This document shows, in pieces, positions 12,190-29,831 of a stretch of DNA of 35,256 bases. Source of the stretch: an uncultured Gammaproteobacteria bacterium (lineage in GTDB: Bacteria; Pseudomonadota; Gammaproteobacteria; Steroidobacterales; Rariloculaceae); NCBI GenBank assembly GCA_913041665.1, contig CAJWKT010000011.1, positions 1 to 35,256 on the forward strand. Reading direction: 5' to 3'. The notes beneath the pieces are model-generated. The model made no database searches and was not told the DNA's origin. It worked only from the letters and a program-made list of their open reading frames with translations. Position numbers and translations under genes: made by a program. Position 1 is the first letter of the stretch. Each line of letters begins with the position of its first letter.

Positions 12190-12750
12190 GTGCAGCTTAA
12201 TATTCCAAACGCCCTGACTATTTTTCGTATTGTTGCAATACCTCTTATCATATTGGTATTTTTCTTGCCCGTGAGTTGGGCTCGCCCGGCATCAGGTTGT
12301 CTTTTTGTTTTGGCTGGTGTCACCGATTGGCTGGATGGGTATTTGGCTAGACGATTGGGTCAGACCTCAAAATTTGGTGCTTTTCTGGATCCTGTAGCTG
12401 ATAAATTAATTATTTCTACTGCGTTAGTGTTGTTGGTTCAATCAGACCCACGGGTTATTTTTTCAATGATTGCGGTAATAATCATAGGACGTGAAATCGC
12501 CGTATCTGCACTCCGAGAATGGATGGCGGAACTTGGTGAGCGCGGACAAGTGGCTGTTACTTTTTTTGGAAAGTGGAAAACAACTGTACAAATAATTGGA
12601 ATAAGCCTGATGCTTTATCAGGATGATCTTTTAGGGCTGCCCATTTACGGAATTGGCATTGCGTTCATGTTGGTGGCGGCAGGACTCACGCTTTGGTCTA
12701 TGATTGACTACCTAAGAACAGCATGGCCCATGATGATTGGACGAGATTAA
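12190..12750 (+). CDS. pgsA: CDP-diacylglycerol--glycerol-3-phosphate 3-phosphatidyltransferase
   Basis: NIPNALTIFRIVAIPLIILVFF..., CDP-alcohol phosphatidyltransferase motif DWLDGYLARRLGQTSKFGAFLDPVADK; directly after uvrC. Confidence 0.95.
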   Translation: MQLNIPNALTIFRIVAIPLIILVFFLPVSWARPASGCLFVLAGVTDWLDGYLARRLGQTSKFGAFLDPVADKLIISTALVLLVQSDPRVIFSMIAVIIIGREIAVSALREWMAELGERGQVAVTFFGKWKTTVQIIGISLMLYQDDLLGLPIYGIGIAFMLVAAGLTLWSMIDYLRTAWPMMIGRD

Positions 12751-12832
12751 CACTTTGTAATAATGGTGACTGACAACAACGCCCTTTAGTTCAAGTTTGA
12801 TAAATTGAAAACTTCGCAACAACTATAATTTT

Positions 12833-13300
12833 TTATATTCCCATCCAAGAAAGAGGCACTTTTACTGCTTCTACCTCTCCCTGCACGAATAATCTGTCAT
12901 TCGTAGTTAGATCGCAGGTGATCACAAGGCGTTCCTTGGTTGCGCTCTTAACAAGAGCTTCCATTTTTAGCCTTGTGTTAATAGAAATAGGACGGCGATA
13001 GTGGACACTCAATTTACCGGTAACAAAACAAAGAAGGGGACTAGAACCTATTTTTCTGTTTTCATTAAAATAGGCAGCAGCCGTTGCCGTGCAAATACAA
13101 TGGCAATCAATAATGGTTGAAATTATCCCGCCATTAACGAAATGCTTTGGTCCAGCGCAGTGCCATGGCTTGGGGAGAAAAATAGCTTGGCTTGGCCCAA
13201 CTCCAGACCAGTAACTTTTGAGTTGAAGGCCAGATTTATTTTGAGGGCCACATCCAAAACAGTTGTTATGCGGTATCAATTCTTGAAGAGAACTTTCCAA
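12833..13300 (-). CDS. PaaI-like hotdog-fold thioesterase
   Basis: NNCFGCGPQNKSGLQLKSYW...HFVNGGIISTIIDCHCICTATAA...LSVHYRRPISINTRLKMEALV. Confidence 0.8.
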   Translation of the reverse strand: MESSLQELIPHNNCFGCGPQNKSGLQLKSYWSGVGPSQAIFLPKPWHCAGPKHFVNGGIISTIIDCHCICTATAAAYFNENRKIGSSPLLCFVTGKLSVHYRRPISINTRLKMEALVKSATKERLVITCDLTTNDRLFVQGEVEAVKVPLSWMGI

Positions 13301-13359
13301 CTATAGAGCTCCTCTATGTAGCAGCCCCTCCCACTTATACTAGGGCGCAGAGTATCCGT

Positions 13360-13388
13360 GGCCACCAAGGTGGCCTGCGTACTAGTAC
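13360..13388. repeat. Two adjacent palindromes: GGCCACC-AA-GGTGGCC (13360-13375) and GTACTAGTAC (13379-13388)
   Basis: Exact inverted complementarity read in sequence, located between the RRM gene 3' end and the thioesterase start. Confidence 0.7.
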
Positions 13389-13442
13389 AAAGGGAGATCT
13401 ATCTAGGGGAAAATAAAGGAGGTGAACTTCAGCCCTAAATAT

Positions 13443-13775
13443 TTACCAGCGATTGCCTCCATTGCCACCACCGTAGCCACCACCACCGCCGCCGCCGCCG
13501 CCGCCATATCCGCCAGATCTTTTGTTTTCCCGTGGTCTAGCTTCATTGACCTTCATTGGCCTACCTTCATAATCGGCCCCATTGAGACCCTCAATTGCGG
13601 CTTGAGCTTCCGCATCACTTGCCATTTCGACGAAACCAAAGCCTTTACTTCGGCCAGTGCCTCGATCTGAAATAATATTAGCCGATTCAACAGTTCCAAA
13701 TTCTCCAAATTTGTCATTCAGGTCCTGCTCACTTGCGGTATAAGGCAAATTTCCAACATACAACTTCCTACCCAC
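13443..13775 (-). CDS. RRM-domain, glycine-rich RNA-binding protein
   Basis: RNP2 KLYVGNLPY, RNP1 RSKGFGFVEM, Gly-rich C-terminus GGYGGGGGGGGGGYGGGNGGNRW. Confidence 0.93.
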   Translation of the reverse strand: MGRKLYVGNLPYTASEQDLNDKFGEFGTVESANIISDRGTGRSKGFGFVEMASDAEAQAAIEGLNGADYEGRPMKVNEARPRENKRSGGYGGGGGGGGGGYGGGNGGNRW

Positions 13776-14125
13776 GATATCTCCTTAATGATAATTGGGC
13801 CACACTAAACGCATATACAAAAAAATTATTATTAGACTATGCGGCGGCCAAGAATGGTTAACGCCCCATTATATATTGAAAAAGATCAACTTAGCACGCA
13901 TATATATAAAAAAAATAGAAAGTTATTCTTGATTTAAGGAAGGATTAGGTATTTTAATTAAAACTGAAAGAATCACTTAGATCAGCTAGGATTAGCGGCC
14001 TAGAAGGGTAAATAGACATTAGAATACCCCGAAACTTGCAAGGGAAATTTAATATAGTGGTTGCCCGGCTTTATACCTCAGAAATGTTGTAAGTCATGTG
14101 TGTAGCGGATTGATTGAAATATAAT

Positions 14126-14201
14126 GCGGGAATAGCTCAGCTGGTAGAGCACAACCTTGCCAAGGTTGGGGTCGCGGGTTCGAGTCCCGTTTCCCGCTCC
14201 A
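14126..14201 (+). tRNA. tRNA-Gly (anticodon GCC), CCA encoded
   Basis: GCGGGAA...TTCCCGC acceptor stem, anticodon arm aaCCTTGCCAAGGtt, T-loop GGGTTCGAGTCCC, terminal TCCA. Confidence 0.97.
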
Positions 14202-14307
14202 ATTTATAAATGCTCCATTAGCGTATTGGAGATGATTTAATCTTTTGACTAATATTTTTTGGCAAAAATTTATTTTCAGAAAGATCTAGCCAGGTAAAAA
14301 GAAAAGT

Positions 14308-15027
14308 ATGGCTGTAAGCATCAACTGCGATATGGGAGAAAGTTTTGGTCTTTATCGCTTGGGAGATGACAAAGCTGTCATGCCATTTATTACCGAGGCT
14401 AATGTGGCATGCGGTTTTCACGGGTCAGACCCCAATCACATGCGAAATACCGTAGAGCTAGCAAAGGGCAATCACGTCAGGGTAGGAGCTCATTTCTCGT
14501 TACCTGATCTTGCAGGGTTTGGCCGGCGAGAAATGAAAATCAACCGTAAGGAAATGGCGAACATTATTACTTATCAAGTAGGAGCGCTTAAAGGTTTTTT
14601 AGATATGGCCGATATGGAGCTAAGTCATTTGAAGCCGCATGGAGCGCTTTATGAAATGGCGGCAAAGCAGGAACATATTGCGCATGCAGTTGCGGATGTC
14701 GGTACATATTTTAAAGTTCCTGTGTTTGGATTAGCTGGTACCTTGCATGAGAAAATTTATACAGACCGCGGGCTCGAGTTTGTAGCGGAGTTTTATGCGG
14801 ATCTTTTTTACGATAATGATGGGAGCTTAATGATTACCCGGGAACACAATGCAGTTGACCCTACAGATGCAGCATCACGATGCTTGCGTGCCATAAAAGA
14901 CGGGTTGACTCAAACTATTGGGGGTATAGATATATCAGTACGAGCCGAAACCATTTGTATTCACTCCGATACCCCAAATGTTGTTGAGGTTGCCCGAGCC
15001 GTCCATGAGGAATTGAAGAATCAGTGA
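14308..15027 (+). CDS. pxpA: LamB/YcsF family protein (5-oxoprolinase subunit A-like)
   Basis: INCDMGESFGLYRLGDDKAVMPFITEANVACGFHGSDPNHM, VGAHFSLPDLAGFGRREM, HLKPHGALYEM. Confidence 0.9.
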   Translation: MAVSINCDMGESFGLYRLGDDKAVMPFITEANVACGFHGSDPNHMRNTVELAKGNHVRVGAHFSLPDLAGFGRREMKINRKEMANIITYQVGALKGFLDMADMELSHLKPHGALYEMAAKQEHIAHAVADVGTYFKVPVFGLAGTLHEKIYTDRGLEFVAEFYADLFYDNDGSLMITREHNAVDPTDAASRCLRAIKDGLTQTIGGIDISVRAETICIHSDTPNVVEVARAVHEELKNQ

Positions 15028-15082
15028 TAATTTGGATTTTTTTAATGCTTGCCCGATAAATTAAAGGTGAGCACGGAGAAGG

Positions 15083-15808
15083 ATGTCTATGAAAAAATCA
15101 AATAGCCGAAATTATGTACTAGTTCATGGTGCGTGGCATGGGGGTTGGGTGTGGCGTCAAGTTGCAGATGCCCTTCGTGCGATGGGCCATACTGTAACGA
15201 CCCCAACTCTGACTGGACTCGGAGAGAGGAAACACCTTGCCTCTCAACGACCTGATTTACTTATGCATGTAGAGGATGTAGTCGCAAATATATACTTGGA
15301 AGGACTGAGCAATATCGTTCTCGTTGGTTGGAGCTATGGCGGTATGGTCATTTCTGGTGTACTCGAACAGATCCAAGAGGATGTCGCTTCTATGGTTTAC
15401 CTCGACGCATTTGTCCCAAAAAGGGGGCAAGCAGTGATCGATTGTGTTGAGTCGGCTGCTGCCAGCGCCTTCCAGGGTTTTATAGATGCGGAGAAGGATA
15501 TTTCCCCGATTATCCCACTAGAAGTTTTTGGTGTAGAAGATGCGGCAATATGTGAATTTGTAAATCCGAGGTTGGTCCCTCAACCCTTTAAAACATTTGC
15601 GCAGCCATCAGAGGCATTATTGGAACTTCCTTCAGGTATTCCGCATACATATATACGTTGCTCAGGATTTCCGGAACCGTCACTAGATGCCTATCTGGCA
15701 TCTGCAGAAAGGGACCCTAATTTTGATGCGCATGTAATGAGTACTAGTCACTTGGCGATGCTCACAGACCCACAAGGGCTTGTCGAGATACTCGATAATG
15801 CGTCATAG
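15083..15808 (+). CDS. Alpha/beta hydrolase
   Basis: NYVLVHGAWHGGWVWRQVADALRAMGHTVTTPTLTGLGERKHL, nucleophile elbow GWSYGG, C-terminal TSHLAMLTDP. Confidence 0.88.
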   Translation: MSMKKSNSRNYVLVHGAWHGGWVWRQVADALRAMGHTVTTPTLTGLGERKHLASQRPDLLMHVEDVVANIYLEGLSNIVLVGWSYGGMVISGVLEQIQEDVASMVYLDAFVPKRGQAVIDCVESAAASAFQGFIDAEKDISPIIPLEVFGVEDAAICEFVNPRLVPQPFKTFAQPSEALLELPSGIPHTYIRCSGFPEPSLDAYLASAERDPNFDAHVMSTSHLAMLTDPQGLVEILDNAS

Positions 15809-15883
15809 CTGAGCAAGTAGAGCCAGTTTTCTGGGACTTTTCAGTGAAAATCTTAGTGTGCCTTATTCTATACTGGGCTGATT

Positions 15884-16215
15884 TTACTGCCAGTTGTTCT
15901 CTAACTTAGTTGTGAGTTCATCGATAAGGCGGGGAAATTCGGTAGCCAGGTCGCTGTGTTCACCGGGATCCAGGGCAATGTTGTAGAGTTGCCAAGAACC
16001 GACATTTGTCCCCGTCCCCATGCTTAGGTGCATTTCGTTAGCAATTTTATAGTTGTTCCTGTGCAAGGCTGCTGCACTTGTCTAAAGATGGCTACTATAT
16101 CTGTCGGTTCATGGGCCGTTTCCGCCAATCTGATTACGTACGGCCAGAAAGAGCGGCCCACAATATCATTGATCTGCCTATCCTTATAATCTCCAGCCCC
16201 GGGATGCCGGTGCTA
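15884..16215 (-). pseudogene. Degraded C-terminal remnant of an arylsulfatase
   Basis: Reverse strand encodes HPGAGDYKDRQINDIVGRSFWPY, then after a frame change ALHRNNYKIANEMH...GSWQLYNIALDPGEHSDLATEFPRLIDELTTKLENNWQ. This aligns with the C-terminus of the sulfatase at 31851-33455 (HPGPGDYKGRKIEGIVGRSAWPY...LIRGNYKITNERL...VSWQLYDIMSDPGETQDLALQYPELVSELLVEWETNWR). Confidence 0.85.
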
Positions 16216-16361
16216 ATAAGCCAAAAGAAAACTATATTTACTGGCTGAAATATTGCGAATACGGATGAACAGTGCAATATTCATCAATACTTTGTGTGGG
16301 TTGGACGCACGAATAAATTCAATAATTTATCGACTAACTGGAAATGCAGGGAGTATTCAAT

Positions 16362-17495
16362 ATGCTGCGAAGAGCACCGTACAGGGCTGATCACGTAGGT
16401 AGTTTGCTGAGGCCGCCGGCCATTCATGAGGCAAGGAAACATTGCTTCTCGGGTTCTGTCGGTTCCGACAGGTTTGGTACTTCGGATCAATTACGCGAGG
16501 CAGAAGACATAGCGATTGCTGAAGTAGTTAAAATGCAGGAGAGCATTGGTCTGCTGGCAACCACGGATGGAGAGTATCGACGGTGGTTTTGGCACTTTGA
16601 CTTCATGGGTGCATTGTCAGGTATAGAGCTAGTTGAGCGTAATGAAGGTGTTCAGTTTCATGGAATCCAGATTCCCCCAATACATCCCACTATTACGGGA
16701 CGCATCAATTTTCCGGACAATCACCCCATGCTGGATCATTTCCGCTATCTAGCATCAGTTACCAATGTCCAGCCGAAAATGTCGATTCCAGGTCCAAGTT
16801 GTTGTCATTTTAGAATAGCAAAAGCAGACATTGCTCCACCAGAGTATGCGGACGTGGAGGTATTGTTCTCAGATCTGACAAAGACCTACTCAAAAGCCGT
16901 CAGGGAATTCTATAAAGCAGGTTGTCGCTACCTGCAAATGGACGACATTTTCTTTGCGTATCTTTGCGATCCAAATCAACGGGAACAAAAAAAAGCTGAA
17001 GGACTTGATCCCGACTGGCTTATCACCCAATACGCCAAAATGATGCATGATGCTATCGAGGATCGGCCCGAAGATATGGTAATCGCTATGCATCTTTGTC
17101 GGGGAAACTTTCGGTCAACTTGGGCAGTAGAAGGTGCATATGATCCGGCGGCTGACGCAGTCTTTAATCAAACAGGTGTTGACGTGTATTTCATGGAGTA
17201 TGACAGTGAGCGTGCCGGGAGCCTACATCCATTGAGGTTGCTGCCGAAGGGGAGTAAGCGTGTTATGCCGGGCTTTATTACGACGAAAGATGGAAGGCTT
17301 GAGTCAATCGATACCATTGAATCTCGCATCGAAGAAGCTTCGAAATTTGTAGATATTGATCAGCTTGGTATCGCTCCACAGTGTGGGTTTGCCTCGACAG
17401 AAGAGGGTAACTCTCTTTCAGAAGATCAGCAGAAACGTAAACTTGAATTAATAGTTTCGATTGCAGAGAAAGTTTGGGGCGGAATTGATGCATAG
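16362..17495 (+). CDS. Cobalamin-independent methionine synthase (MetE) C-terminal-like family protein
   Basis: RAPYRADHVGSLLRPPAIHEAR, ATTDGEYRRWFWHFDF, CRYLQMDDIFFAYLCD, MVIAMHLCRGNFRSTW, VMPGFITTKDGRLES, LGIAPQCGFAST. Confidence 0.87.
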   Translation: MLRRAPYRADHVGSLLRPPAIHEARKHCFSGSVGSDRFGTSDQLREAEDIAIAEVVKMQESIGLLATTDGEYRRWFWHFDFMGALSGIELVERNEGVQFHGIQIPPIHPTITGRINFPDNHPMLDHFRYLASVTNVQPKMSIPGPSCCHFRIAKADIAPPEYADVEVLFSDLTKTYSKAVREFYKAGCRYLQMDDIFFAYLCDPNQREQKKAEGLDPDWLITQYAKMMHDAIEDRPEDMVIAMHLCRGNFRSTWAVEGAYDPAADAVFNQTGVDVYFMEYDSERAGSLHPLRLLPKGSKRVMPGFITTKDGRLESIDTIESRIEEASKFVDIDQLGIAPQCGFASTEEGNSLSEDQQKRKLELIVSIAEKVWGGIDA

Positions 17496-17624
17496 ATTCG
17501 TACTTATTACGGGAAACCTTGGAAACTTTCTTGTCATGAGTACTTTTTTTTATTTTACACATGTGTCAGCCCATCATTCATTCGCAACTCATTACATTAC
17601 TAATGAGTTATTTGAGATATTCTT

Positions 17625-19148
17625 TTAGTAATCCATGGATCTTCCTGTGAATGGATTAACTCCCCCATGGAAGCCACCTTGGTCACGCACCACTCGTGCA
17701 ACACCGTCCTCGTTGTAGTGCACCCAAACTAAACCATGCGGGTCACCCCATTTGGGCATGTCGATCACATGTGTCTGTTGTCGGGTTTGGGTATCAAAAA
17801 CGAAAATCTGCCCATCACCATTCGCAGTAGCCCATATTTCTTTGCCATTGGGTGCTAGCAGGATGTGATCAACTACGTAGCCGGAGAACAGGGTTTCAAG
17901 ATGCCTCCCGTCATCAGTATCGAAGACTGTGACGGTTCGGCCAAAAAACTCATTGGCCTCACCCTTATCAGCAACCCATATTTCCGACTGGTCCGCATTG
18001 AATGTTGCACCGTAGGGACCAATTCCCGTAGCTCTGTGCCATTCAATGGCACCAGTTTCCAGGTTGATTTTCGTCAGGCTCGATGAACCAGCGGCTGGGA
18101 CATAGATATTTTCACTGGCATTGTCTATCAAGATCCAGTCGCCGCGATATCCGGGGTAAGGATATTCGTTTACGACTTCCCAGGTATTCGGGTCAATCTG
18201 CGCTACCCAGTACGGTCGCAGGGTTGTCAGTACGCCACGACTAAGATTGACTGCGCCAATAAAACCGGAAAGCGCCATTGGGCCGTACCCGACGGGCTCC
18301 ATGAGGATGTAGATATATTCGTTATCCGTGAACGAGGTATAAGTGTTACCGCCTAAATCCTCTCCCCGAACGCCACCAATGATTTCATCGGTTTCCGGGT
18401 CAAAGAGAAATACGTCTAGGCCTGCCTCTTCACGGGCGAAAGTATCAATTAACAAATAGCGGTCTTGGAATATCTGTCCGTGGTGCATCCGACCCCCGAC
18501 TGTCATTTGTTTGACAGGCTGAAGGGTCAGGGCATCAATTTTGATGAGTGAGGCTACTGCATTAAGCCCGGCGCTGTTCGCGTCATCGCTTGAAAAAGCG
18601 CCAACGATATAAACAAATTTTCCATCGGGAGAGACAACCGTGGTGTGAACGCTGGATCGTAGTTCGGGTGAAAGTTCGTAGGCCGCGATCATTTCCTTTG
18701 TTTCAGCGTCCCCAACCGACACTTGGCTTGATTCGGCCCCTACGGTCCTTCGGCCGGCAGAATAAAAGTTAGTAGTGGTTCCCAGATTTTCGTAAAAATA
18801 GGTTTTTCCGGGTTGCGGCTCAAATTTCGGCTCTCCAGGTTCGAATACGGCGATTTCCTGCACTTCATAGTTGTGCATGACACTGCCGGTTTTGGCGCGA
18901 CGTTGCCAATTTTCCAGTAGGTCATCAAAAGATTCGATGCTACCGACGAGTTGGTCGCGTTCGGTTGTTGGAAATTGCTCAAGAAACTCTGAGGTATTTG
19001 GCACGACTCCAGCCCCCTGCCTGAGCAATGAGCTATTTACTTCAGTGGAAAGCCGCTCTTCACGGGTAGGTGATGTTTGGGTACTAGCAATTTCGTAAAA
19101 TGCGAATAGTCCCACAGGAACAATAAGCAGTGATTTCCATTTTTTCAC
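17625..19148 (-). CDS. Secreted beta-propeller (YncE/YVTN-like) protein
   Basis: N-terminal signal-like hydrophobic segment; repeated VVSPDGKFVYIVGAFSS, TKINLETGAIEWHRATGIGPYGATFNADQSEIWVADKG, HILLAPNGKEIWATANGDGQIFVFDTQTRQ blades. Confidence 0.7.
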   Translation of the reverse strand: MKKWKSLLIVPVGLFAFYEIASTQTSPTREERLSTEVNSSLLRQGAGVVPNTSEFLEQFPTTERDQLVGSIESFDDLLENWQRRAKTGSVMHNYEVQEIAVFEPGEPKFEPQPGKTYFYENLGTTTNFYSAGRRTVGAESSQVSVGDAETKEMIAAYELSPELRSSVHTTVVSPDGKFVYIVGAFSSDDANSAGLNAVASLIKIDALTLQPVKQMTVGGRMHHGQIFQDRYLLIDTFAREEAGLDVFLFDPETDEIIGGVRGEDLGGNTYTSFTDNEYIYILMEPVGYGPMALSGFIGAVNLSRGVLTTLRPYWVAQIDPNTWEVVNEYPYPGYRGDWILIDNASENIYVPAAGSSSLTKINLETGAIEWHRATGIGPYGATFNADQSEIWVADKGEANEFFGRTVTVFDTDDGRHLETLFSGYVVDHILLAPNGKEIWATANGDGQIFVFDTQTRQQTHVIDMPKWGDPHGLVWVHYNEDGVARVVRDQGGFHGGVNPFTGRSMDY

Positions 19149-19264
19149 GATTTTTAACCTCTCTTAAGCGGACTAAGCCATGATAGCCTATCTCTATATT
19201 TATGGTTATAGTCTGCAGTGTGCTAGGCGGTAACATAACGTTTAAGAATGTTTAAGGATTTATT

Positions 19265-19903
19265 ATGACGGAGTCAGTACCTACAGAAATTAAGAATATC
19301 TCTCCTAGGCAATTGTGGCTTGGAGTCTTGGCATCTGTTGTCATTGCTCTTGTTTTGTTATTTGTAGTGGTATTGCCGGCAGAAAAAGGGATTGATCCGA
19401 CTGGCGCGGGAAGGCTATTGGGGCTTAATGCGCTCAGTAATCCGGTAAGGACAATTGAAATCGTGGATATTGTGGGTGGTAATGAGGAATATCGAAATGT
19501 AGAAATTCCCGATTTTGGAGACCCTGTACCGCTACCAAATCCGAACGTCTATCAGGGTGAAGCGGAAGTTTTCCAAAGTGAATCGAGACAAATTTTACTT
19601 GGTCCGTTCGAGGAGACAGAAATAAAAATGGTGCTTGCACAGGGAAAGATGATTCTTTACTCCTGGGAGGTTGATCGTGGCGATATATATGTTGATTTTC
19701 ATGGACATGAACCTGGCGTTAATGACTACTGGGTACGGTACCAGGAACAACAGGAAGGCGTTGGCGGTAACGGATCACTCGTTGCCCCCTTTGAGGGACA
19801 GCATGGCTGGTATTGGCTGAACTACAATGAGTTTCCGGTTGTCATTACACTTAACATTAGTGGTTATTATTCCGGCATTATTGACTTAAGTGCTAATTTT
19901 TAA
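19265..19903 (+). CDS. Single-TM anchored hypothetical protein
   Basis: 639-bp ORF with one strong TM segment (LWLGVLASVVIALVLLFVVVLP) and an acidic extracytoplasmic domain. Confidence 0.7.
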   Translation: MTESVPTEIKNISPRQLWLGVLASVVIALVLLFVVVLPAEKGIDPTGAGRLLGLNALSNPVRTIEIVDIVGGNEEYRNVEIPDFGDPVPLPNPNVYQGEAEVFQSESRQILLGPFEETEIKMVLAQGKMILYSWEVDRGDIYVDFHGHEPGVNDYWVRYQEQQEGVGGNGSLVAPFEGQHGWYWLNYNEFPVVITLNISGYYSGIIDLSANF

Positions 19904-19956
19904 ATGGTATTTTTTAATCAGTATCAACAGACTAAGTTTTCAGTGGTGCACACATT

Positions 19957-20388
19957 GTGAAAAAAAACATTACAAAAATATTTGGATTACTTTTTTTCCC
20001 TTTGCTTATCTCAGCCGATATAGATGAGGGTTTTATGCGGATTTCCCCGAGCGAGCTGGATTGGATCCAGCGAGAAAGCGGAACATCGTATGTGGTGCTG
20101 ACGGGTGATCCGCAGTCGGAGGGGCTATATATTCAACGGAATAAATTTCCTCCAGGCGCTTTTTCGCGACCACATCATCACGATCAGGACCGTTTTGTTA
20201 CGGTGATATCGGGCGTTTGGTATACCGGTACAGGCGATGACTTTAATCCGGACAATACCGTTCCGCTTGGACCGGGCAGCTATATGAAACACCCAGCGGG
20301 AGGAGTACATTTTGACGGCGCCAAGGAAGGTGAGGTTATTGTTGAAATTCGCGGAATGGGGCCCGTTCATACCACGTTTGTTGAGTAG
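19957..20388 (+). CDS. Cupin-domain protein with signal peptide
   Basis: FPPGAFSRPHHHDQDRFVTVISGVWYTGTGDDF...LGPGSYMKHPAGGVHFDGAKEGEVIVEIRGMGP; GTG start. Confidence 0.82.
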   Translation: MKKNITKIFGLLFFPLLISADIDEGFMRISPSELDWIQRESGTSYVVLTGDPQSEGLYIQRNKFPPGAFSRPHHHDQDRFVTVISGVWYTGTGDDFNPDNTVPLGPGSYMKHPAGGVHFDGAKEGEVIVEIRGMGPVHTTFVE

Positions 20389-20421
20389 TTCGTGAATTAG
20401 CTTGAGGCCCTAGCTCAGAAA

Positions 20422-21432
20422 ATGGGATATCTGAATAAATGGCAGGGTGCAGTTGTTGCGGCGCCCGTATTTTTTTTGGTGTCCCCGGTTCTTGCGCATC
20501 ATAGCGAAGCTGGATTTGACACAGACAAGGTAGTCGCCTTTGTCGGTACAGTGGTTGAGTATAGTTGGCGTAACCCCCACGTCTATATTGATATTGAGAA
20601 TCTTGATTCTCTGAATAGACGAACCATCTGGGAAATTGAAACTGGCGCAACCCCGATAATGAGAAGAAGTGGTTGGAGTCCTGATTCCTTGGTGGTCGGA
20701 GATGTTGTGTCCATCAGGGCGCATCCAGAAAGAGATACTAGAAGGAACTACGCTTTGCTTATTTCGTTAGAGAAAGAAAACGGGGATGCCCTCTCTCAAA
20801 CTTCGGGTAATCCTCAAGTTGTTGCGACAACTACTAGTCTTGAGGGGATTTGGAAAGGATTCGGTCCGAGTTTGGAACCTTTTCGCAGGGCCTTCAACCA
20901 GACCCCGTTGACTAAAATGGGACTTGAAGCAAAGGAAGCATACAACTTTTATGAAGACGCGCCGGCAGCAATGTGTGTAGCTCCGTCGTCCCCACACATC
21001 ATTTCCACTGGCCTTTATGTAACTCAGGTAGAGTTAATGGAGGACCGGGTAATTTTTCACAATGAATTTTTTGACGCTGAACGTATTGTATATATGGATG
21101 GACGTGGCCACCCGGCAGAACAGGAACGCAGTACGCAGGGCCACTCTATAGGCTGGTGGGAGGATAATGTTTTAGTAGTCGATACCACGAATTTTTCGGA
21201 TCACCGGATCGGGAATGGTACTGGGGTGCCCTCTGGGTCCCAGAAGCATTTGGTTGAGAAGTATCAGCTTAGTGAGGATGGGACGAAGTTAATGATTGAG
21301 GTTACGCTGACCGACCCTGAGTATTTGTCAGAACCTTTTACTGGGTCCTTGGAGTGGAGGTATACCCCTGAATTTGAATTATTTCGCTACAACTGTGATT
21401 TTGAGGTTTCTAGGCGCTTCAGGCTGGATTAG
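20422..21432 (+). CDS. DUF6152-like secreted protein (paralogue 1)
   Basis: Signal peptide ending at VLAHHS; AFVGTVVEYSWRNPHVYIDIE; GHSIGWWEDNVLVVDTTNF. Similar to 28071-29117. Confidence 0.72.
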   Translation: MGYLNKWQGAVVAAPVFFLVSPVLAHHSEAGFDTDKVVAFVGTVVEYSWRNPHVYIDIENLDSLNRRTIWEIETGATPIMRRSGWSPDSLVVGDVVSIRAHPERDTRRNYALLISLEKENGDALSQTSGNPQVVATTTSLEGIWKGFGPSLEPFRRAFNQTPLTKMGLEAKEAYNFYEDAPAAMCVAPSSPHIISTGLYVTQVELMEDRVIFHNEFFDAERIVYMDGRGHPAEQERSTQGHSIGWWEDNVLVVDTTNFSDHRIGNGTGVPSGSQKHLVEKYQLSEDGTKLMIEVTLTDPEYLSEPFTGSLEWRYTPEFELFRYNCDFEVSRRFRLD

Positions 21433-21440
21433 GTAACTAG

Positions 21441-22208
21441 TTAGTCCTCTAAGTACCCGTGTTGTTTGATAATGTTAGAGGCATCCCTGGAGCGCAGATA
21501 ATTATAAAAAGAGATGGCAGCAGGGTTTTTGGCTCCCCGTATTAACAAAATAGCGTCTTGTAGAATCGGGTCGTACAGCGCAGGAGGAATAACGATAAAA
21601 TTTCTGTGGGTTTTGTAGCCTAGAGCCTGAGAGAGAGCCACAAGACCAAGATCAGCGTTACCCGTCTGAGCCCAGACAAAAGCTTGGTTTGTATTTTCAG
21701 CTAATACAATACGTTCCTGTAGTTGGGGCCAAATCCCTAAGGCAGTTAGGGTTTGACGCGCAGCAAATCCGTAAGGTGCGATACGTGGATTTGCGATGGC
21801 CAAATAACGAAAATTACCTTCCTTGAGTTCCTTTAGCATCGCCGATGCTCTGATGTTCAGATTGTTCCCCCATAGCACCAGTTGCCCGCGCGCATAGGTA
21901 AACTGTGAGACAGGATCCGCGAAACCGGATTCAACTAATAATGTAGCTGTCTTTTGATCAGCCGACAAAAGAACATCAAATGGTGCTCCGTTGATGATTT
22001 GCGCATAGAGCTGGCCAGTCGATCCGGTAACTAAAACCACCTCATGGGAGCCGTTTAGCTCAAAGGAATCTTTCAGATCATAAAAAGCAATTAAGAAATT
22101 TGCAGATACGGCCACGGTGACTGACTCTGCATGACCAAAGCGACCTCCCAAGAGAAATAGGAGTACCAACCAAGCCATTGTTTTTCGGCATTGAGCCTTT
22201 AGCCTCAT
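21441..22208 (-). CDS. ModA-like periplasmic substrate-binding protein
   Basis: VTVAVSANFLIAFYDLKDSFE...VLVTGSTGQLYAQIINGAPFDVLLSADQKTATLLVESGFAD...YARGQLVLWG...ANPRIAPYGFAARQTLTALG. Confidence 0.87.
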   Translation of the reverse strand: MRLKAQCRKTMAWLVLLFLLGGRFGHAESVTVAVSANFLIAFYDLKDSFELNGSHEVVLVTGSTGQLYAQIINGAPFDVLLSADQKTATLLVESGFADPVSQFTYARGQLVLWGNNLNIRASAMLKELKEGNFRYLAIANPRIAPYGFAARQTLTALGIWPQLQERIVLAENTNQAFVWAQTGNADLGLVALSQALGYKTHRNFIVIPPALYDPILQDAILLIRGAKNPAAISFYNYLRSRDASNIIKQHGYLED

Positions 22209-22229
22209 AAAATTTTTGTGTAAACCTTA

Positions 22230-23546
22230 TTATCCACTAACACCCATGAGACGCTCGGGAAGCCAGGTTGCGATTTCAGGAAACACGCATAGCAATATAA
22301 TTGAAAGCAACATTAGTAAGACAAAGGGAATGGTCCCCCTAAGTATTTGCGGTAGCCCCACGTCGGGTACTATTCCCTTGATCACGTATAGGTTAAGTCC
22401 CACCGGTGGTGTAATGAGCCCGATCTCCATGTTAATTGTTAGTACTACTGCAAACCAATAGGGATCAAATCCAGCTTGAAGGATGATTGGGAGCAAGATG
22501 GGAGCAGTCATCAAGATAACTGCGACCGGGGGGAGAAAAAATCCGGCTACAAGAAGAAAGATATTAATGATAGCTAAGAGTAGCCAGCGATTTACCCCAA
22601 TTGTAGCAATCCATTCGGCAATGGATTGGGTAATGAAGAGGCTCGAAAGCGTATAGCTCAGCAATTCAGCTGCCCCGATGATCATCATGATCATGACGCT
22701 TTCCCGGGTGCTAGTACTGAGGATGTCCCAGATTTGTTTAGGTTTTCTAATTCCGTAAATAACTGCTATCAATACAAAGCAGAGCATCGCGCCAACGCCA
22801 GCAGCTTCAGAAGGTGTTGCGACACCGCCATATAGCGCGTAGAGGATTCCCGCTATGATTAATAAAAAGGGCAGCACGCGGGGTACTTGTTCAATTTTTT
22901 CTCTCAAACTAAAGTGACGCCGTGAGCCTTTAGCGAAGGTGCCGCTCCGTAGGGAGTAGTACATTGACCAACCAATGAAAAGTAGCGTGAGCATTAATCC
23001 AGGAAGAACGCCGGCAATAAATAACCGTCCGATTGAAGTACCGGTTGAAATTCCATAGATGATCATCGTGACACTGGGCGGAATTAAAATTCCTAAAGTA
23101 CCTCCGGCAGCTATTGAGCCGGTTGCGAGTTCTTCTGGATAGCCATGCTTTCGCATCTCTGGAATGCCCATTTTTCCAATTGCTGCACAGGTAGCTGGCG
23201 AGGAACCACTGAGAGCGGCAAAGATTGCGCAGGCTCCAATGTTCGAAATAGCAAGACCACCAGGCACTCGCGTAAGCCAACGATCTAATGCTCCATAAAG
23301 ATCGCTACCAGCTGGAGAAGAGGCCACAGCTGCGCCCATAGCAATAAACATAGGGATTGAAACCAGCGTAAAGTTTGAGAGCCCAGAGAAAAATAGCTCT
23401 CCAGTGAAAATGAGGCTGTCGGGGCCCTCAAAGATGGCTAAAAAAAATAGGGAGACCGCTGTAAGGCCGAATGCTACAGGGATACCGCTTCCAAGAACTA
23501 ACACAGTCACAAGCCCGATCAAAACACCGATTTCAATCGGACTCAT
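22230..23546 (-). CDS. TRAP transporter large permease (DctM)
   Basis: Multi-TM, 438 aa; SIPMFIAMGAAVASS, GSSPATCAAIGKMGIPEMRKHGYPEELATGSIAAGGTLGILIPPSVTMIIYG, NMEIGLITPPVGLNLYVIKGI. Confidence 0.95.
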   Translation of the reverse strand: MSPIEIGVLIGLVTVLVLGSGIPVAFGLTAVSLFFLAIFEGPDSLIFTGELFFSGLSNFTLVSIPMFIAMGAAVASSPAGSDLYGALDRWLTRVPGGLAISNIGACAIFAALSGSSPATCAAIGKMGIPEMRKHGYPEELATGSIAAGGTLGILIPPSVTMIIYGISTGTSIGRLFIAGVLPGLMLTLLFIGWSMYYSLRSGTFAKGSRRHFSLREKIEQVPRVLPFLLIIAGILYALYGGVATPSEAAGVGAMLCFVLIAVIYGIRKPKQIWDILSTSTRESVMIMMIIGAAELLSYTLSSLFITQSIAEWIATIGVNRWLLLAIINIFLLVAGFFLPPVAVILMTAPILLPIILQAGFDPYWFAVVLTINMEIGLITPPVGLNLYVIKGIVPDVGLPQILRGTIPFVLLMLLSIILLCVFPEIATWLPERLMGVSG

Positions 23547-24074
23547 TTATTTTCTCACTGTACTTTGAGTGTCAGTATCAAATTTCCTGTCCGCGGCAAA
23601 AGAAAGAATATTCACTAGGTATTGAAGGGTAAGCACAGAAAACCCGACTACCAGAGGAAGAAGTGGTATCCATAAGGGGGGTGCCCAAATAGATTCTGTT
23701 GTCCAATTTTTTGTCCAGGCCTCATGGAAGTACACCCAGCTGCTCCAAGCTAAGATACCGCAAGCAGCCAACGCAATTGTGGATGAGAAAATGGAAAGGA
23801 AGTGTTTTCCCCTTGGTGATAGGTAGTGTGGTATCAGATCAACATTTACATGCCCGCCCTTCAATAAGACATAAGGGCTTCCCATGACAGTAGTGGCTAC
23901 AATTGAAAAGGTAACAAATTCGGTTTGCCAGATAGTAGAGGCCCCGATCAGATAACGAATTAGAACCATTTCGCATACGACTGCACAGGCCGCCCCAAGG
24001 CAGAGTACGGCAAGCACACCACAGGCCCAGGAGAGCCAGTTGACACTTCGCAGGAGCAGGTTCATATGCCTCAA
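23547..24074 (-). CDS. TRAP transporter small permease (DctQ)
   Basis: 4 TM segments, WQTEFVTFSIVATTVMGSPYVLLKGGHVNVDLIPHYLSPRGKHFL; between DctM and DctP genes. Confidence 0.92.
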   Translation of the reverse strand: MRHMNLLLRSVNWLSWACGVLAVLCLGAACAVVCEMVLIRYLIGASTIWQTEFVTFSIVATTVMGSPYVLLKGGHVNVDLIPHYLSPRGKHFLSIFSSTIALAACGILAWSSWVYFHEAWTKNWTTESIWAPPLWIPLLPLVVGFSVLTLQYLVNILSFAADRKFDTDTQSTVRK

Positions 24075-25078
24075 TCTATTGCAAGAGCTTGATCGATTAA
24101 CTCAGCTCCACCAGGTACTTCTTCAGCAAACACTCGGTAAGAGCTTTCTGCAGCAATCTCTTTCCACGCTTGCGCTTGTTCAGCATTCATATGAACAACC
24201 CGGACGCCGGCATTTAGATAGACTTTTTCCATTTCGGCATCAAGCTTTTTGGCTTCCTGAAAAAAATAGTCCTCAGCCAGTTTTGACGCACGCCTCAATA
24301 TCGATTGCTGTTGGGATTGCAGTTTATTCCAGCTTCGCTGCGCCATGAGAACGGGCTGATACATAAACCACAATCCATGTTCTCCCGGTGCAGTTAGGCA
24401 TTGGGCATGTTCGTAAAGGCGGAATGTTATAAGACTTGCTGAGCTTGTATTGGCAGCATCTAGAACACCGGTTTGCATGGCGGTATAAATTTCAGAACTT
24501 GGCATCGAGGCAATCGAGGCTCCGGCGCCAGCTAGCATTCTTTCAAAGGCTGGGCCCGCCCCGCGAGTAACTAATCCCTGTATATCGCTTGGCCAAAGAA
24601 TACAGTTCTCTGTGCTCACAAAACCACCGGATAGCCAAGCATCCGCAAGTACAATTAAACCCTCACCTTCAATAATCTCTCTTATTGAGTCCATATAGGG
24701 TGAACTGTTTAGTCGTCGAGCATGGTCGTGATTCTTCACTAATCCTGGCATAAGAGTGGCATTGAATTGCGGGTGTCGCCCACTCGCATAATCCAATGGT
24801 AAGGCAGTAATATCCAATCGTCCCCTAATTAGCGCAGACCACTGGTCACCAGCCTTAAAGAGAGATTGCGCGGGGTAGATGCGGACGACGAGATCAACTT
24901 CAGCCACTTCAATTTCTCGGGCTATGATGCGAAACATTTCGTCGCGCACATCACCTGTTCCACCGGGCCACTGGTGTGAAATTCTAAGGATAGTTTGGGC
25001 AAAAGTATCACTCGATGCCCAACAAAAGAAAATGCCAGCTAAAAGAGAGGTGGATAGAAGCGCGTTCTTTTTTCTCAT
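24071..25078 (-). CDS. TRAP transporter substrate-binding protein (DctP)
   Basis: Signal peptide; YPAQSLFKAGDQWSALIRGRLDITALPLDYASGRHPQF, MPSSEIYTAMQTGVLDAANTS; 4-nt overlap with dctQ. Confidence 0.92.
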   Translation of the reverse strand: MRKKNALLSTSLLAGIFFCWASSDTFAQTILRISHQWPGGTGDVRDEMFRIIAREIEVAEVDLVVRIYPAQSLFKAGDQWSALIRGRLDITALPLDYASGRHPQFNATLMPGLVKNHDHARRLNSSPYMDSIREIIEGEGLIVLADAWLSGGFVSTENCILWPSDIQGLVTRGAGPAFERMLAGAGASIASMPSSEIYTAMQTGVLDAANTSSASLITFRLYEHAQCLTAPGEHGLWFMYQPVLMAQRSWNKLQSQQQSILRRASKLAEDYFFQEAKKLDAEMEKVYLNAGVRVVHMNAEQAQAWKEIAAESSYRVFAEEVPGGAELIDQALAID

Positions 25079-25201
25079 GACTTAATTGTGCTGCTTAAAC
25101 AGAGATGTCGCAAGGGACTTAAGCGGAGTGACAGTTGCAGGCAGCAAAAATAGTTAGTGTACAGGACTAATCAACGGCCCGAATACCAATCGTTACCTAC
25201 C

Positions 25202-27175
25202 TTAAGTTTTTTTGAGATCGCAGGCACGCTTGGTATCCCAAGTAACCTTTTGGATTGAGATGCAGTCAACAGGGCAAACTTTCTCACATCTGCCACAACG
25301 GGTGCACTCATCCTGATCAATGTAAAGCAGTTGGTAGCGGCCCCGTGTTGAATCTTTTGCCCTTGAGTATCCTGAAATAAGTCCGTCTTGGTCAGTATGC
25401 AACGCATCAATTGGTACGATGCAATTTTCATGCGGCTTTACGTCTAGGCATTTATCGCAGTAAATGCATGCGTCATTATCAATTTCGAATTTGTAGTGAC
25501 ATAAATAGCAACGCACAGCCTCAACATTAGCTTCAGGGCCATTGTATCCTAGCTCAACTTCTTCCCGACGCGTTCGGTTTTCAGCGGGAATTTCCCTGGT
25601 CGGTTGACGTTCGATCACATTCATAGATGGTGTTCTGCCAGTTTCGTAGACTGATGTAATATGAGCCACTTCCATTAAGCGTATTTCACCCATAAGGTGC
25701 TCGTCTAGCTTGCGGGCGCAGCTTTTCGCATGCCCTATAGCATCTATTAAGCTCGAGGCGCCAATTGAATAGTCTCCAGCTAAAAATAAACTTGGATGGG
25801 TAGTTCGTTGAGCTACCTCATTACTCGACTCAACACGTTCATTTAGGAGATGGTGCTTAAGAGCACTATCTATCCAGGTGGTATCTCTCCGTTCACCATT
25901 AGCCGCAACAACCGTATCTACTATCACTTCGATCTCTCTTTTGGGAGCGTCTTTGCAGTAGTCACTTTGATCCGTGTTAGGCTTTTCGCAAAAGTCAAAG
26001 GTAATATTTATCTTTGTGGCCCCATTTAAATTAATTTTTTGGTAACTGATGGGATACATAGACGTTTTAAGTTCTATTCCCTCATCCTTGAGTGCCTTGA
26101 GCTCATTATTCGATATGGATATTTGTTTACGAGTTCCCTGGTAGTAGACCGTGGGGATAGAACCCAATCGGACTGCGGCACGAGCACAATCCATTGCAGT
26201 AAAGCCTCCACCAATTACAGCAACATGACGCCCGAGGGTCATTTTTGGTTCGGACATGTTGAATTTATGAAGAAAAATCAGGCCATCCTGAATGCCTTCG
26301 ATTTTGTGATCCCAATTTTCAATTTGATTGAGTTCTGTGGTGCCTGCCGCAATAACTACGGCATCGTGATTATTTAGTAAGCTTTGAACCGAATGTTTGG
26401 CGCCAATGGATTGGTTGCATCGAATCTCTACCCCCAATTGCTTAATCTGCTCGATCTCTTTACGAAGAATCATGCGGGGGAGGCGAAACTCGGGAATCCC
26501 TTGATTCATGAAGCCCCCGGGTTCAGGGTGTTGCTCAAAGATAATTGCCTTGTGGCCAAAAAGCGCTAATTCTCGCGCCGTCGTGAGTCCGGCCGGTCCG
26601 GCCCCGATAATTGCTACTGTTTTTCCGGAAGAGCTAAATAGCGGCTTTAGTAGAACCGGTTGTCGTGACCCTAGATCACCCGCAGCGCGTTTCGACAGGC
26701 AAATAGCCACTGGTTGACCAAGGCCCTCACGGCCGTGTCGGCAGGCCGGCTCGCAGGGTCTGGAGCAAACTCGACCGAGAACTGACGGAAAAATATTGTC
26801 GACTAAATTAATGAGATATGCTTCATTATAATTACCGGCATAAATTTCCTTTAAGTAATTTGGTACGCGTGTTTTGGCTGGACAGGCAGCCTGGCACGGA
26901 ATGTTCTTTTTTAGCCAGTCAATATCTTTCGGCTGGTTAGCGTAGCCACTTTGACGAGAGAGGGCAGCGTAATCAGGCTGGCCCTTATCGGGTGGAAGAT
27001 GGTGATTGGTATCTGGGTCCTGAATCATACTCTTAAGGATTCTCTTAATTGGTGACCTTAGTTTATCTGATTGATTTGCTTCAGTCTTTGTTCCACGCAA
27101 GAAGGCTGAGCCCAAAAAAAATTCACCCATAGCAAATAGAAGATACAATGCATTTTTATGCATGCATGTAATCAA
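25202..27175 (-). CDS. GltD-like FAD-dependent oxidoreductase with C-terminal 4Fe-4S ferredoxin region
   Basis: CQAACPAKTRVPNYLKEIYAGNYNEAYLINLVDNIFPSVLGRVCSRPCEPACRHGREG, VAIIGAGPAGLTTARELALFGHKAIIFEQHPEPGGFMNQGIPEFRLPR, CYLCHYKFEIDNDACIYCDKCLDV, CTRCGRCEKVCPVDCISI. The start codon is uncertain. Confidence 0.85.
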   Translation of the reverse strand: MITCMHKNALYLLFAMGEFFLGSAFLRGTKTEANQSDKLRSPIKRILKSMIQDPDTNHHLPPDKGQPDYAALSRQSGYANQPKDIDWLKKNIPCQAACPAKTRVPNYLKEIYAGNYNEAYLINLVDNIFPSVLGRVCSRPCEPACRHGREGLGQPVAICLSKRAAGDLGSRQPVLLKPLFSSSGKTVAIIGAGPAGLTTARELALFGHKAIIFEQHPEPGGFMNQGIPEFRLPRMILRKEIEQIKQLGVEIRCNQSIGAKHSVQSLLNNHDAVVIAAGTTELNQIENWDHKIEGIQDGLIFLHKFNMSEPKMTLGRHVAVIGGGFTAMDCARAAVRLGSIPTVYYQGTRKQISISNNELKALKDEGIELKTSMYPISYQKINLNGATKINITFDFCEKPNTDQSDYCKDAPKREIEVIVDTVVAANGERRDTTWIDSALKHHLLNERVESSNEVAQRTTHPSLFLAGDYSIGASSLIDAIGHAKSCARKLDEHLMGEIRLMEVAHITSVYETGRTPSMNVIERQPTREIPAENRTRREEVELGYNGPEANVEAVRCYLCHYKFEIDNDACIYCDKCLDVKPHENCIVPIDALHTDQDGLISGYSRAKDSTRGRYQLLYIDQDECTRCGRCEKVCPVDCISIQKVTWDTKRACDLKKT

Positions 27176-27196
27176 TAAAATTCAATAGGTTTTACT

Positions 27197-27877
27197 ATGA
27201 AGCGAATCTTTATAGGTATCTTTGGTTTGTTCTCCGTAATGTTTTGTGTGTCTTTGTTTGCACACGGGATTACCGGTCCTGATCAGGCATTCCTTCTAAG
27301 TAATGTGGGCACCCAGATTGGCGTATTTATTTATTTGGGCGCGAAACATATGGTCACAGGATACGATCATCTTCTGTTTCTTGCGGGCGTTATTTTCTTT
27401 CTTTATCGACTGAAGGACGTTGCGGTTTACGTGACCCTATTTGCTATTGGGCACAGCATTACCCTGCTTTTAGGTGTGCTTGGTGGTTTACATGTCAATT
27501 CTTACATTGTTGATGCCATTATTGGCCTTTCCATAGTCTACAAAGCTTTTGAGAATGTTGGCGGCTTCAGTCAGATGGGACTTAGGATCAATACTAAGGC
27601 GGCAGTACTTATTTTTGGTTTTTTTCACGGATTTGGGTTGGCAACAAAACTTCAGGATCTTGCTATTTCGGAAGAAGGACTGCTGCCAAATATGCTTTCA
27701 TTCAATCTCGGCGTTGAAGTTGGTCAGCTGCTAGCACTCAGTGTAATTCTAGTCGCCTTTAACTTTTGGCGTCCAACTCAGAGTTTCATCAAGCATGCAT
27801 ACACAGTAAATATTGTGCTGATGGGTTCAGGCTTTATTTTAATAGGTTATCAGCTTACCGGTTATTTTCTGGCTTGA
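27197..27877 (+). CDS. HupE/UreJ-family membrane protein
   Basis: GAKHMVTGYDHLLFLAGVIFFLYRLKDVAVYVTLFAIGHSITLLLG, FFHGFGLATKLQDL. Confidence 0.85.
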   Translation: MKRIFIGIFGLFSVMFCVSLFAHGITGPDQAFLLSNVGTQIGVFIYLGAKHMVTGYDHLLFLAGVIFFLYRLKDVAVYVTLFAIGHSITLLLGVLGGLHVNSYIVDAIIGLSIVYKAFENVGGFSQMGLRINTKAAVLIFGFFHGFGLATKLQDLAISEEGLLPNMLSFNLGVEVGQLLALSVILVAFNFWRPTQSFIKHAYTVNIVLMGSGFILIGYQLTGYFLA

Positions 27878-27976
27878 ATGACGGTACCCTTGATTTTCTG
27901 CTCTTGATGATCTTCAGCGAATTTGGGGCATACCTGTGCTAAATTGTGGGCTAGATCGCCCTTAGTGGGAAATTTT

Positions 27977-28050
27977 GGCGCGGTGGCAGAGTGGTGATGC
28001 AGCGGCCTGCAAAGCCGCGTACACCGGTTCGATTCCGGTCCGCGCCTCCA
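27977..28050 (+). tRNA. tRNA-Cys (anticodon GCA), CCA encoded
   Basis: GGCGCGG/CCGCGCC acceptor stem, anticodon arm CGGCCTGCAAAGCCG, T-arm CCGGTTCGATTCCGG, terminal TCCA. Confidence 0.97.
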
Positions 28051-28070
28051 ATCAATTTAGGCTGAGGACT

Positions 28071-29117
28071 ATGCGAATAAAGACAGCATTGATAGCTTTA
28101 TCAACTGCATTTTTGATTAATGGCGCAAGCGCACACCATGGGTCAGTAACTAACGGATCGTTATACCGAGTGGAGGAACTAATCCAGCTCGAGGGCGAGA
28201 TTACTGAGGTGTTCTGGCATAACCCCCACGTGCGGGGAAAAATGAAGGTCGAAAATGGCAACGGGAATGCGGAGACCTGGGAAGTGGAATTTGCTGGAGG
28301 CCCTCGTAGTTGGGAAAGGCGGGGGATGGTTACTGATGATTTTTTAGGTTTAGTGAAAGTCGCTGGGCATGTTTCTCGGCGGAATCCTCGGGGCCTTGGT
28401 GTAGTCCACATGTTGTTTGCCAATGGCCAGGAGTTTGCGGCTAGAGGCAATAGCCCAATTTATTCGTCTGAACTCGTTCCTAGCAATCGGCGACGACCAA
28501 CAGTGGCCCAGATTGCAAGGGCAGAACAAACCGCAGACGGTATCTTTCGTGTGTGGGAGGGTAGCCACCCGGAGCCGGAGGAGGAGCTTCTTCGGGTGAG
28601 AGAATTTTTCACAGAACGTGGGCGCGAATTGGCCGCAAGCTATGATCCACTTGAAGACAATCTTGAGCTTGTCTGTCGGCAGGGTATGCCGGATGTCAAT
28701 TTTGAACCGGTGCCCATGGATATTACTGACCAGGGGAATCGAATTCGTATCCGTTCGGAGGAATACAATATGGAGAGATACATCTACATGGATTCCCTGC
28801 TAGCACAGCCCAAACCATCCCCCACCGGCCATTCTGTAGGTCGCTGGGACGGGGATACGCTAGTAGTAGAAACGACAGGTATTGATTGGCCCTTTTATTC
28901 CGAAATAGGGATACCTCAGTCGGACCAAGTACGCTATCTCGAGCATTTTTGGTTATCAGAAAATGGAAATTTTTTGAACTATTCAATAGAAGTTACTGAT
29001 CCAATTGTGCTTACTGAGTCTATTACTCTCATAGAAAGGAGTCGGGCCTGGACTCCAGGGGTTGAACTAGAGGGGCCGTACAACTGTATCTATGACTGGC
29101 AGGAATTTAGCAACTAG
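28071..29117 (+). CDS. DUF6152-like secreted protein (paralogue 2)
   Basis: MRIKTALIALSTAFLINGASAHHGS signal peptide; QLEGEITEVFWHNPHVRGKMKVENGNG; GHSVGRWDGDTLVVETTGIDWPF. True start at 28071, since the ORF-track start at 27975 lies inside tRNA-Cys. Confidence 0.75.
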   Translation: MRIKTALIALSTAFLINGASAHHGSVTNGSLYRVEELIQLEGEITEVFWHNPHVRGKMKVENGNGNAETWEVEFAGGPRSWERRGMVTDDFLGLVKVAGHVSRRNPRGLGVVHMLFANGQEFAARGNSPIYSSELVPSNRRRPTVAQIARAEQTADGIFRVWEGSHPEPEEELLRVREFFTERGRELAASYDPLEDNLELVCRQGMPDVNFEPVPMDITDQGNRIRIRSEEYNMERYIYMDSLLAQPKPSPTGHSVGRWDGDTLVVETTGIDWPFYSEIGIPQSDQVRYLEHFWLSENGNFLNYSIEVTDPIVLTESITLIERSRAWTPGVELEGPYNCIYDWQEFSN

Positions 29118-29246
29118 CATCTTCCTAAATTTGCCTAAAACAGGATATTTTTGCGGTAAAAATCCAGTTAAATCGTTTTAGAAAAACTGTGGTTCCGCTT
29201 TTTTTGTAGGGAGTCTCCTGACGCCCATATATGGTTTGCGGTCCTA

Positions 29247-29276
29247 AGGTGTATTTCTATACTTAATAATACACCT
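29247..29276. repeat. Inverted repeat AGGTGTATT...AATACACCT (9-bp arms)
   Basis: Exact 9-bp complementary arms, 12-nt spacer, in the AT-rich region upstream of tRNA-Leu. Confidence 0.6.
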
Positions 29277-29421
29277 ATCAAAAATCATATAATAACTTGA
29301 TATTATTTAATTTATATTCATTTCAGAGAGCCTTTTTCTTGGCTTGGTACTAATTTATTTGAAAGAGTCGTCATTATCGGCGCCGAACGACTCATTTCTG
29401 GCTAGAATAGATGCACCAGAG

Positions 29422-29746
29422 GCCCGGGTGGCGGAACTGGTAGACGCAAGGGACTTAAGACTTTTTTGGGCACCCAGGTTGGAAACACTTGGTGTGAATG
29501 GGGTCAAATTCGGGGAAACCTCAGCTCGTAGAGGAGGTGGCAATCCCGAGCTAATCCCTGGTTGAGGCCGGGGAAAGTGTAGAGACTTGACGGCCCCCGC
29601 CTAACCCGTAGTACGTACTGCGGTATGGTGAAGAGAAAGTCCAGACCACAAATGCACCTGCATTGCGGGTTGCAGCCGCGAAAGCCGTAGTGGTATGAAA
29701 ATCCCTCGAAGGTAACTTCGTGCCGGTTCGAGTCCGGCCCCGGGCA
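29422..29746 (+). tRNA. tRNA-Leu (anticodon UAA) interrupted by a group I intron; exons 29422-29456 and 29698-29746; no encoded CCA
   Basis: Joined exons GCCCGGGTGGCGGAACTGGTAGACGCAAGGGACTT+AAAATCCCTCGAAGGTAACTTCGTGCCGGTTCGAGTCCGGCCCCGGGCA fold as a class II tRNA: acceptor GCCCGGG/CCCGGGC, anticodon stem AGGGA/TCCCT, loop CTTAAAA, variable arm CGAAG-GTAA-CTTCG, T-stem GCCGG/CCGGC. Confidence 0.96.
29457..29697 (+). other. Group I self-splicing intron (tRNA-Leu(UAA) type, probable subgroup IC3), 241 nt, no ORF
   Basis: Follows U34 of the anticodon (U|AA) and ends in G. P/Q/R/S-like elements: AATTCGGGGAAACCT, GGCAATCCCGAGC, GTGTAGAGACTTGACGGC, AAGAGAAAGTCC. P3 GGGGTC/GGCCCC (29500-29505/29592-29597), P4 TTCGGG/CCCGAG (29509-29514/29545-29550), P7 AGACT/AGTCC (29583-29587/29638-29642). 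Confidence 0.94.
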
Positions 29747-29831
29747 TCTAATAGAAAAAAGTGCTGAACAGTATGCAATAATATAGTAGATATTGGCTGT
29801 TAACCTATTGATTTTATTAGCATGAGACAAC

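Follow-up and report, generated by a model that had tools for sequence, protein, structure and literature searches.

A group I intron in the tRNA-Leu(UAA) gene of an uncultured gammaproteobacterium, with an empty site in the same family

The tRNA-Leu(UAA) gene of cyanobacteria and plastids carries a group I intron with the same host tRNA, insertion site and architecture as the intron described here, which lies in a 35,256-nucleotide contig (the window) of an uncultured gammaproteobacterium. The likeness to the cyanobacterial form, as in Anabaena and Synechococcus, covers the tRNA, the insertion between U34 and A35, the P1-P9 plan, the terminal omega-G before AAAAUCC and the lack of an intron ORF. 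The window intron differs in its gammaproteobacterial host, in a shorter P6 and in its sequence, which groups with gammaproteobacterial introns. A second small tRNA intron, the Azoarcus-type intron of tRNA-Ile(CAU), has the same core and is found within the window's family, in different genera. However, it is inserted after the anticodon (exon ACUCAU, intron ending in G, exon AAUCCC) and falls mostly on a separate tree branch.

Interrupted tRNA-Leu-TAA and tRNA-Arg-TCT genes have already been noted in the gammaproteobacteria Ca. Maribeggiatoa (BOGUAY) and Ca. Thiomargarita nelsonii Bud S10 (PMC4853749). Their tRNA-Leu(UAA) genes, like that of the window, hold a putative group I intron; these Beggiatoaceae introns lack a structural classification in that report and are likened to ours by description. 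The window intron thus belongs to an already known type. A review from 2014 names only cyanobacteria and alpha- and betaproteobacteria as carriers of group I tRNA introns (PMC4033280), a range which is narrower than the distribution seen here and makes the correction worthwhile.

Gene structure and the intron-less homologue

With introns allowed, ARAGORN identifies positions 29422-29746 as a class II tRNA-Leu(UAA) gene with a 241-nt intron at the cyanobacterial-type site (Table 1). Without introns, it calls no tRNA at these positions and returns only tRNA-Gly (14126) and tRNA-Cys (27977) from the whole window. The 5' junction joins exon GGGACUU to intron AAGACU, and the 3' junction joins intron GGUAUG to exon AAAAUCCCU. 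The gene does not encode CCA, the 3' exon being followed by TCT. The ORF list holds no ORF of at least 80 aa within the 241-nt intron, and thus no candidate homing endonuclease gene; the single ORF overlapping the intron (29504-29830, minus strand) extends past the tRNA. Scans for promoters and terminators near the gene gave no hits.

An uninterrupted tRNA-Leu(UAA) gene is present in another genome of the same family, G005, and the window's joined exons are identical to it at 81 of 84 positions without a gap. The G005 gene, which does encode CCA, is preceded by tRNA-Cys and by a homologue of window ORF 27197-27877 with 64% identity, and the window is arranged alike. This empty site fixes the exon boundaries (29456/29698) independently of any intron model. 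Both ARAGORN and G005 agree with the sequence-only reading, which had placed 241 nt ending in G between U34 and A35.

Table 1. Features of the interrupted tRNA-Leu(UAA) gene (positions in the window)
Feature	Positions	Strand	Description	Basis
5' exon	29422-29456	+	Acceptor strand, D arm, 5' anticodon stem, C32 U33 U34	ARAGORN; agrees with intron-less G005 tRNA-Leu
Group I intron	29457-29697	+	241 nt, last base omega-G	Rfam RF00028, ARAGORN, covariation, ORF list
P1	29454-29470	+	Intron GGG pairs with exon CUU, giving U.G at the splice site; AAG/UUU may extend the helix	
P3 5' strand	29500-29505	+	GGGGUC; partner 29592-29597	
P4 5' strand	29509-29514	+	UUCGGG; partner 29545-29550	
P4 3' strand	29545-29550	+	CCCGAG; partner 29509-29514	
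P6 hairpin	29555-29574	+	UCCCUGG/CCGGGGA	78% paired, 146 double-sided changes
P7 5' strand	29584-29588	+	GACUU, guanosine-binding helix; partner 29637-29641	
P3 3' strand	29592-29597	+	GGCCCC; partner 29500-29505	
P8	29599-29629	+	GCC/GGU and CCGUAGU/ACUGCGG	98% and 81% paired; 31 and 192 double-sided changes
P7 3' strand	29637-29641	+	AAGUC; partner 29584-29588	
P9 domain	29645-29694	+	Includes GAAA-capped hairpin 29676-29687	
3' exon	29698-29746	+	A35 A36 to discriminator base; long variable arm, T arm	ARAGORN

Group I identity and core helices

The Rfam model Intron_gpI (RF00028) matches positions 29446-29669 with an E value of 9.4e-11 and a score of 52.6 bits, barely above the gathering cut-off of 50. 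The only other Rfam matches in the window are the two tRNAs. The fold of the whole RNA is more stable than those of its dinucleotide shuffles (z = -3.8; 0 of 100).

We evaluated individual helices in an alignment of 86 bacterial tRNA-Leu(UAA) introns, using a slid 3' strand as the control. Because the helices were drawn on the window sequence, the paired percentages are biased somewhat towards it, and compensatory changes are the stronger evidence. P3, P4, P7 and P8a are paired in 98 to 100% of cells and P9b in 95%, compared with 1 to 72% for slid controls. P3 is 100% paired with 119 double-sided changes (slid controls, 34 to 70% paired), P4 is 98% paired with 25, and P7 is 100% paired, its last pair appearing as U-A, A-U or G-C. 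The P3-P7 pseudoknot core, with P4, P6 and P8, is thus conserved with compensatory changes in the 86 sequences; P2 and P5 are weakly defined in this alignment. The splice-site U.G is invariant (86/86 homologues), and the window intron terminates in G.

The Rfam score, the ARAGORN call and the covariation together confirm the earlier proposal of a group I intron in tRNA-Leu(UAA), and the pairings proposed with it fared unequally. P1 (CUU/GGG), P3 (GGGGTC/GGCCCC) and P4 (TTCGGG/CCCGAG) stand. The suggested P7, AGACT/AGTCC, is better replaced by GACTT/AAGTC, whose last pair covaries in relatives, and the suggested P8, CGC/GCG, by the two-part helix in Table 1. The probable subgroup is IC3, judging by the host tRNA, the small size of the intron and the plan of its core.

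From this architecture, the 241-base intron RNA very probably cuts itself out. The precursor would fold as a P1-P9 ribozyme, in which an outside guanosine held in P7 would attack 3' of U34, at the U.G of P1. In the second step, the 3'-OH thereby released on U34 would attack after the omega-G (29697), which would ligate GGGACUU to AAAAUCCCU and re-form the anticodon stem-loop.

The window copy has weak points of its own. Its P1 is weakened by a G.U middle pair found in only 2 of 86 sequences, the window and one other, and its P9 GAAA hairpin contains a C-C mismatch at a position paired in nearly all relatives. In the pseudoknot-free minimum-energy fold, the P1-loop sequence GACUUUUUU pairs with the 3' strand of P7, which in this model is a possible misfolding trap. 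These three traits could lower splicing efficiency with the core unbroken. A far-fetched extension is that weak P1 and the competition of GACUUUUUU for P7 tune splicing, so that conditional release of the sole UUA-reading tRNA would let the intron regulate UUA-rich genes in this lineage.

Distribution and descent

Intron_gpI matches are present in 19 of the 22 family genomes. The interrupted gene is tRNA-Leu(UAA) in two genera, one of them the window's, and tRNA-Ile(CAU) in most of the rest. Across the order, 62 of 148 genomes contain some Intron_gpI match. ARAGORN labels many introns of the order as interrupting tRNA-Gln(CTG) or tRNA-Arg(CCG); we rejected these labels as shifted splice points, since the exons (ACTCAT, then AATCC after the intron's final G) show tRNA-Ile(CAU). 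A strict tRNA-Leu intron pattern was found in 17 of 387 gammaproteobacterial genomes, representing 17 genera, surely an underestimate. A scan of named genomes recovered at least 119 loci, most of them from metagenome-assembled genomes with host assignments that rest on binning. Among the matches listed, 83 are tRNA-Leu(UAA) genes with an intron and 31 more have a leucine 3' exon; they include Thiohalomonas, Thiohalophilus, Methylohalomonas, Peristeroidobacter, Uliginosibacterium, Phaeodactylibacter, Chloroflexota and Bacillota. Overall, introns like this one also turn up on viral contigs and in members of the Beta- and Alphaproteobacteria, Bacteroidota, Chloroflexota and Bacillota. The exceptional nature first attributed to the window intron was overstated, considering the Beggiatoaceae precedent (PMC4853749), the 17 gammaproteobacterial genomes and the several other phyla. 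The intron is real but fairly ordinary, and its type is widespread in bacteria beyond cyanobacteria.

Related introns were also observed on mobile elements and in other tRNAs. At least 120 viral contigs from IMG/VR (L217-L336) match the tRNA-Leu intron pattern. Among the viral matches listed, 97 are tRNA(UAA) genes whose group I introns measure 196-318 nt; some of these genes belong to phage tRNA clusters, and 29 of the 97 have a short variable loop (class I body) although their anticodon is UAA and the intron site is unchanged (L219, L221, L225, L237, L239, L240, L242, L248 and others). According to a 2014 review, all phage introns known by then were in protein genes (PMC3984707). Three loci of the window's order (L037, L038 and L097) are tRNA-Lys(CUU) genes interrupted by a group I intron of 215-217 nt, which lies between exon GGACTCTT and, after its final G, exon AATCC; these genes adjoin other tRNAs (Pro, Arg, His and Leu). 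A tRNA-Arg(UCU) gene between tRNA-Pro and tRNA-His in a same-family genome (L346, G125) has a group I intron placeable at 34/35, as in tRNA-Leu(UAA). A conjugative Bradyrhizobium plasmid (L355, NZ_CP094524.1) carries an unannotated intron-bearing tRNA-Leu(UAA) gene, and a Tritonibacter replicon (L356, NZ_CP015231.1) holds a related intron within a tRNA gene with exons resembling tRNA-Thr(UGU).

In phylogenetic trees, the window intron and six same-family introns form one clade (support, 95/90) inside a mainly gammaproteobacterial set, and Chloroflexota, betaproteobacterial and most viral introns are placed elsewhere. Placing the window and L343 as a sister pair gives an AU P value of 0.45. The order also contains another, separate lineage of tRNA-Leu introns (L070-L072), which sits beside the Bradyrhizobium plasmid copy, so that the order probably acquired such introns more than once. 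In several gammaproteobacteria the intron-bearing gene stands at the ancestral site, following uvrC, pgsA, tRNA-Gly and tRNA-Cys, and the window keeps this order with insertions (uvrC, 10337; pgsA, 12190; tRNA-Gly, 14126; tRNA-Cys, 27977; then tRNA-Leu). The pgsA-tRNA-Gly-tRNA-Cys-tRNA-Leu cluster, compact in other gammaproteobacteria, is stretched over about 17 kb in the window (12190-29746), where a TRAP transporter, a methionine synthase-like gene and a molybdate-binding protein gene are inserted.

These data bear on whether the same intron arrived recently from a cyanobacterium or a phage, a question of its origin and not of its identity. Such a transfer would account for the empty site within the family and for kindred introns on viral contigs and the conjugative plasmid, and the title of a published Beggiatoa paper argues for exchange with cyanobacteria. 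We nonetheless consider it unlikely, as the closest relatives are the six same-family introns, most viral sequences lie elsewhere in the tree, and the intron occupies the ancestral cluster in several gammaproteobacteria. Of the two origins first proposed, an under-described gammaproteobacterial branch is favored by the same-family clade; recent cyanobacterial transfer finds no support in trees that sample cyanobacteria by one Anabaena sequence. The intron, with no ORF of note, would have been passed on within the family along with the tRNA locus.

Dependence on splicing

The window assembly (2.25 Mb, 86% complete) has 31 tRNA matches, and its remaining leucine tRNAs have the anticodons CAA, UAG and CAG. 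Neither tRNA searches nor a search for the spliced anticodon-loop pattern found a second, uninterrupted tRNA-Leu(UAA) gene in this assembly. Among the 22 family genomes, the intact pattern is present in nine others and in none of those bearing the intron. UUA occurs at 18.4 per 1,000 codons in 20 window ORFs. Frequent UUA codons and the failure to find an uninterrupted copy suggest that translation probably depends on intron splicing, so that the earlier claim of an essential tRNA relying on it is likely right.

The opposing view is that the gene is a decaying, splicing-deficient relic, its tRNA dead and tRNA-Leu(UAA) supplied by another gene. The weak P1 and P9 mismatch are peculiar to the window, its gene lacks an encoded CCA, its end branch (0.36) is the longest among same-family kin, and a second tRNA-Leu(UAA) gene could be absent from an assembly that is 86% complete. 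We regard a relic as very improbable, however, because all core helices are intact, UUA codons are frequent, and an uninterrupted UAA gene was found neither in the window genome nor in the relatives that carry the intron, four of them with a completeness of 92% or more. We favor, with a probability of about 94%, a self-splicing group I intron that splits, between U34 and A35, the one tRNA-Leu(UAA) gene recovered and is inherited in the family with its locus; the splicing chemistry and its cellular necessity we infer from sequence comparison.

What has been under-described is the breadth of the tRNA-Leu(UAA) intron distribution. To the little-described noncyanobacterial introns of this kind, the window adds one that is intact and for which another genome of the family offers a natural empty site. 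Annotation without intron detection, as with the ARAGORN run that disallowed introns, overlooks a tRNA-Leu(UAA) gene that is probably essential to its host.
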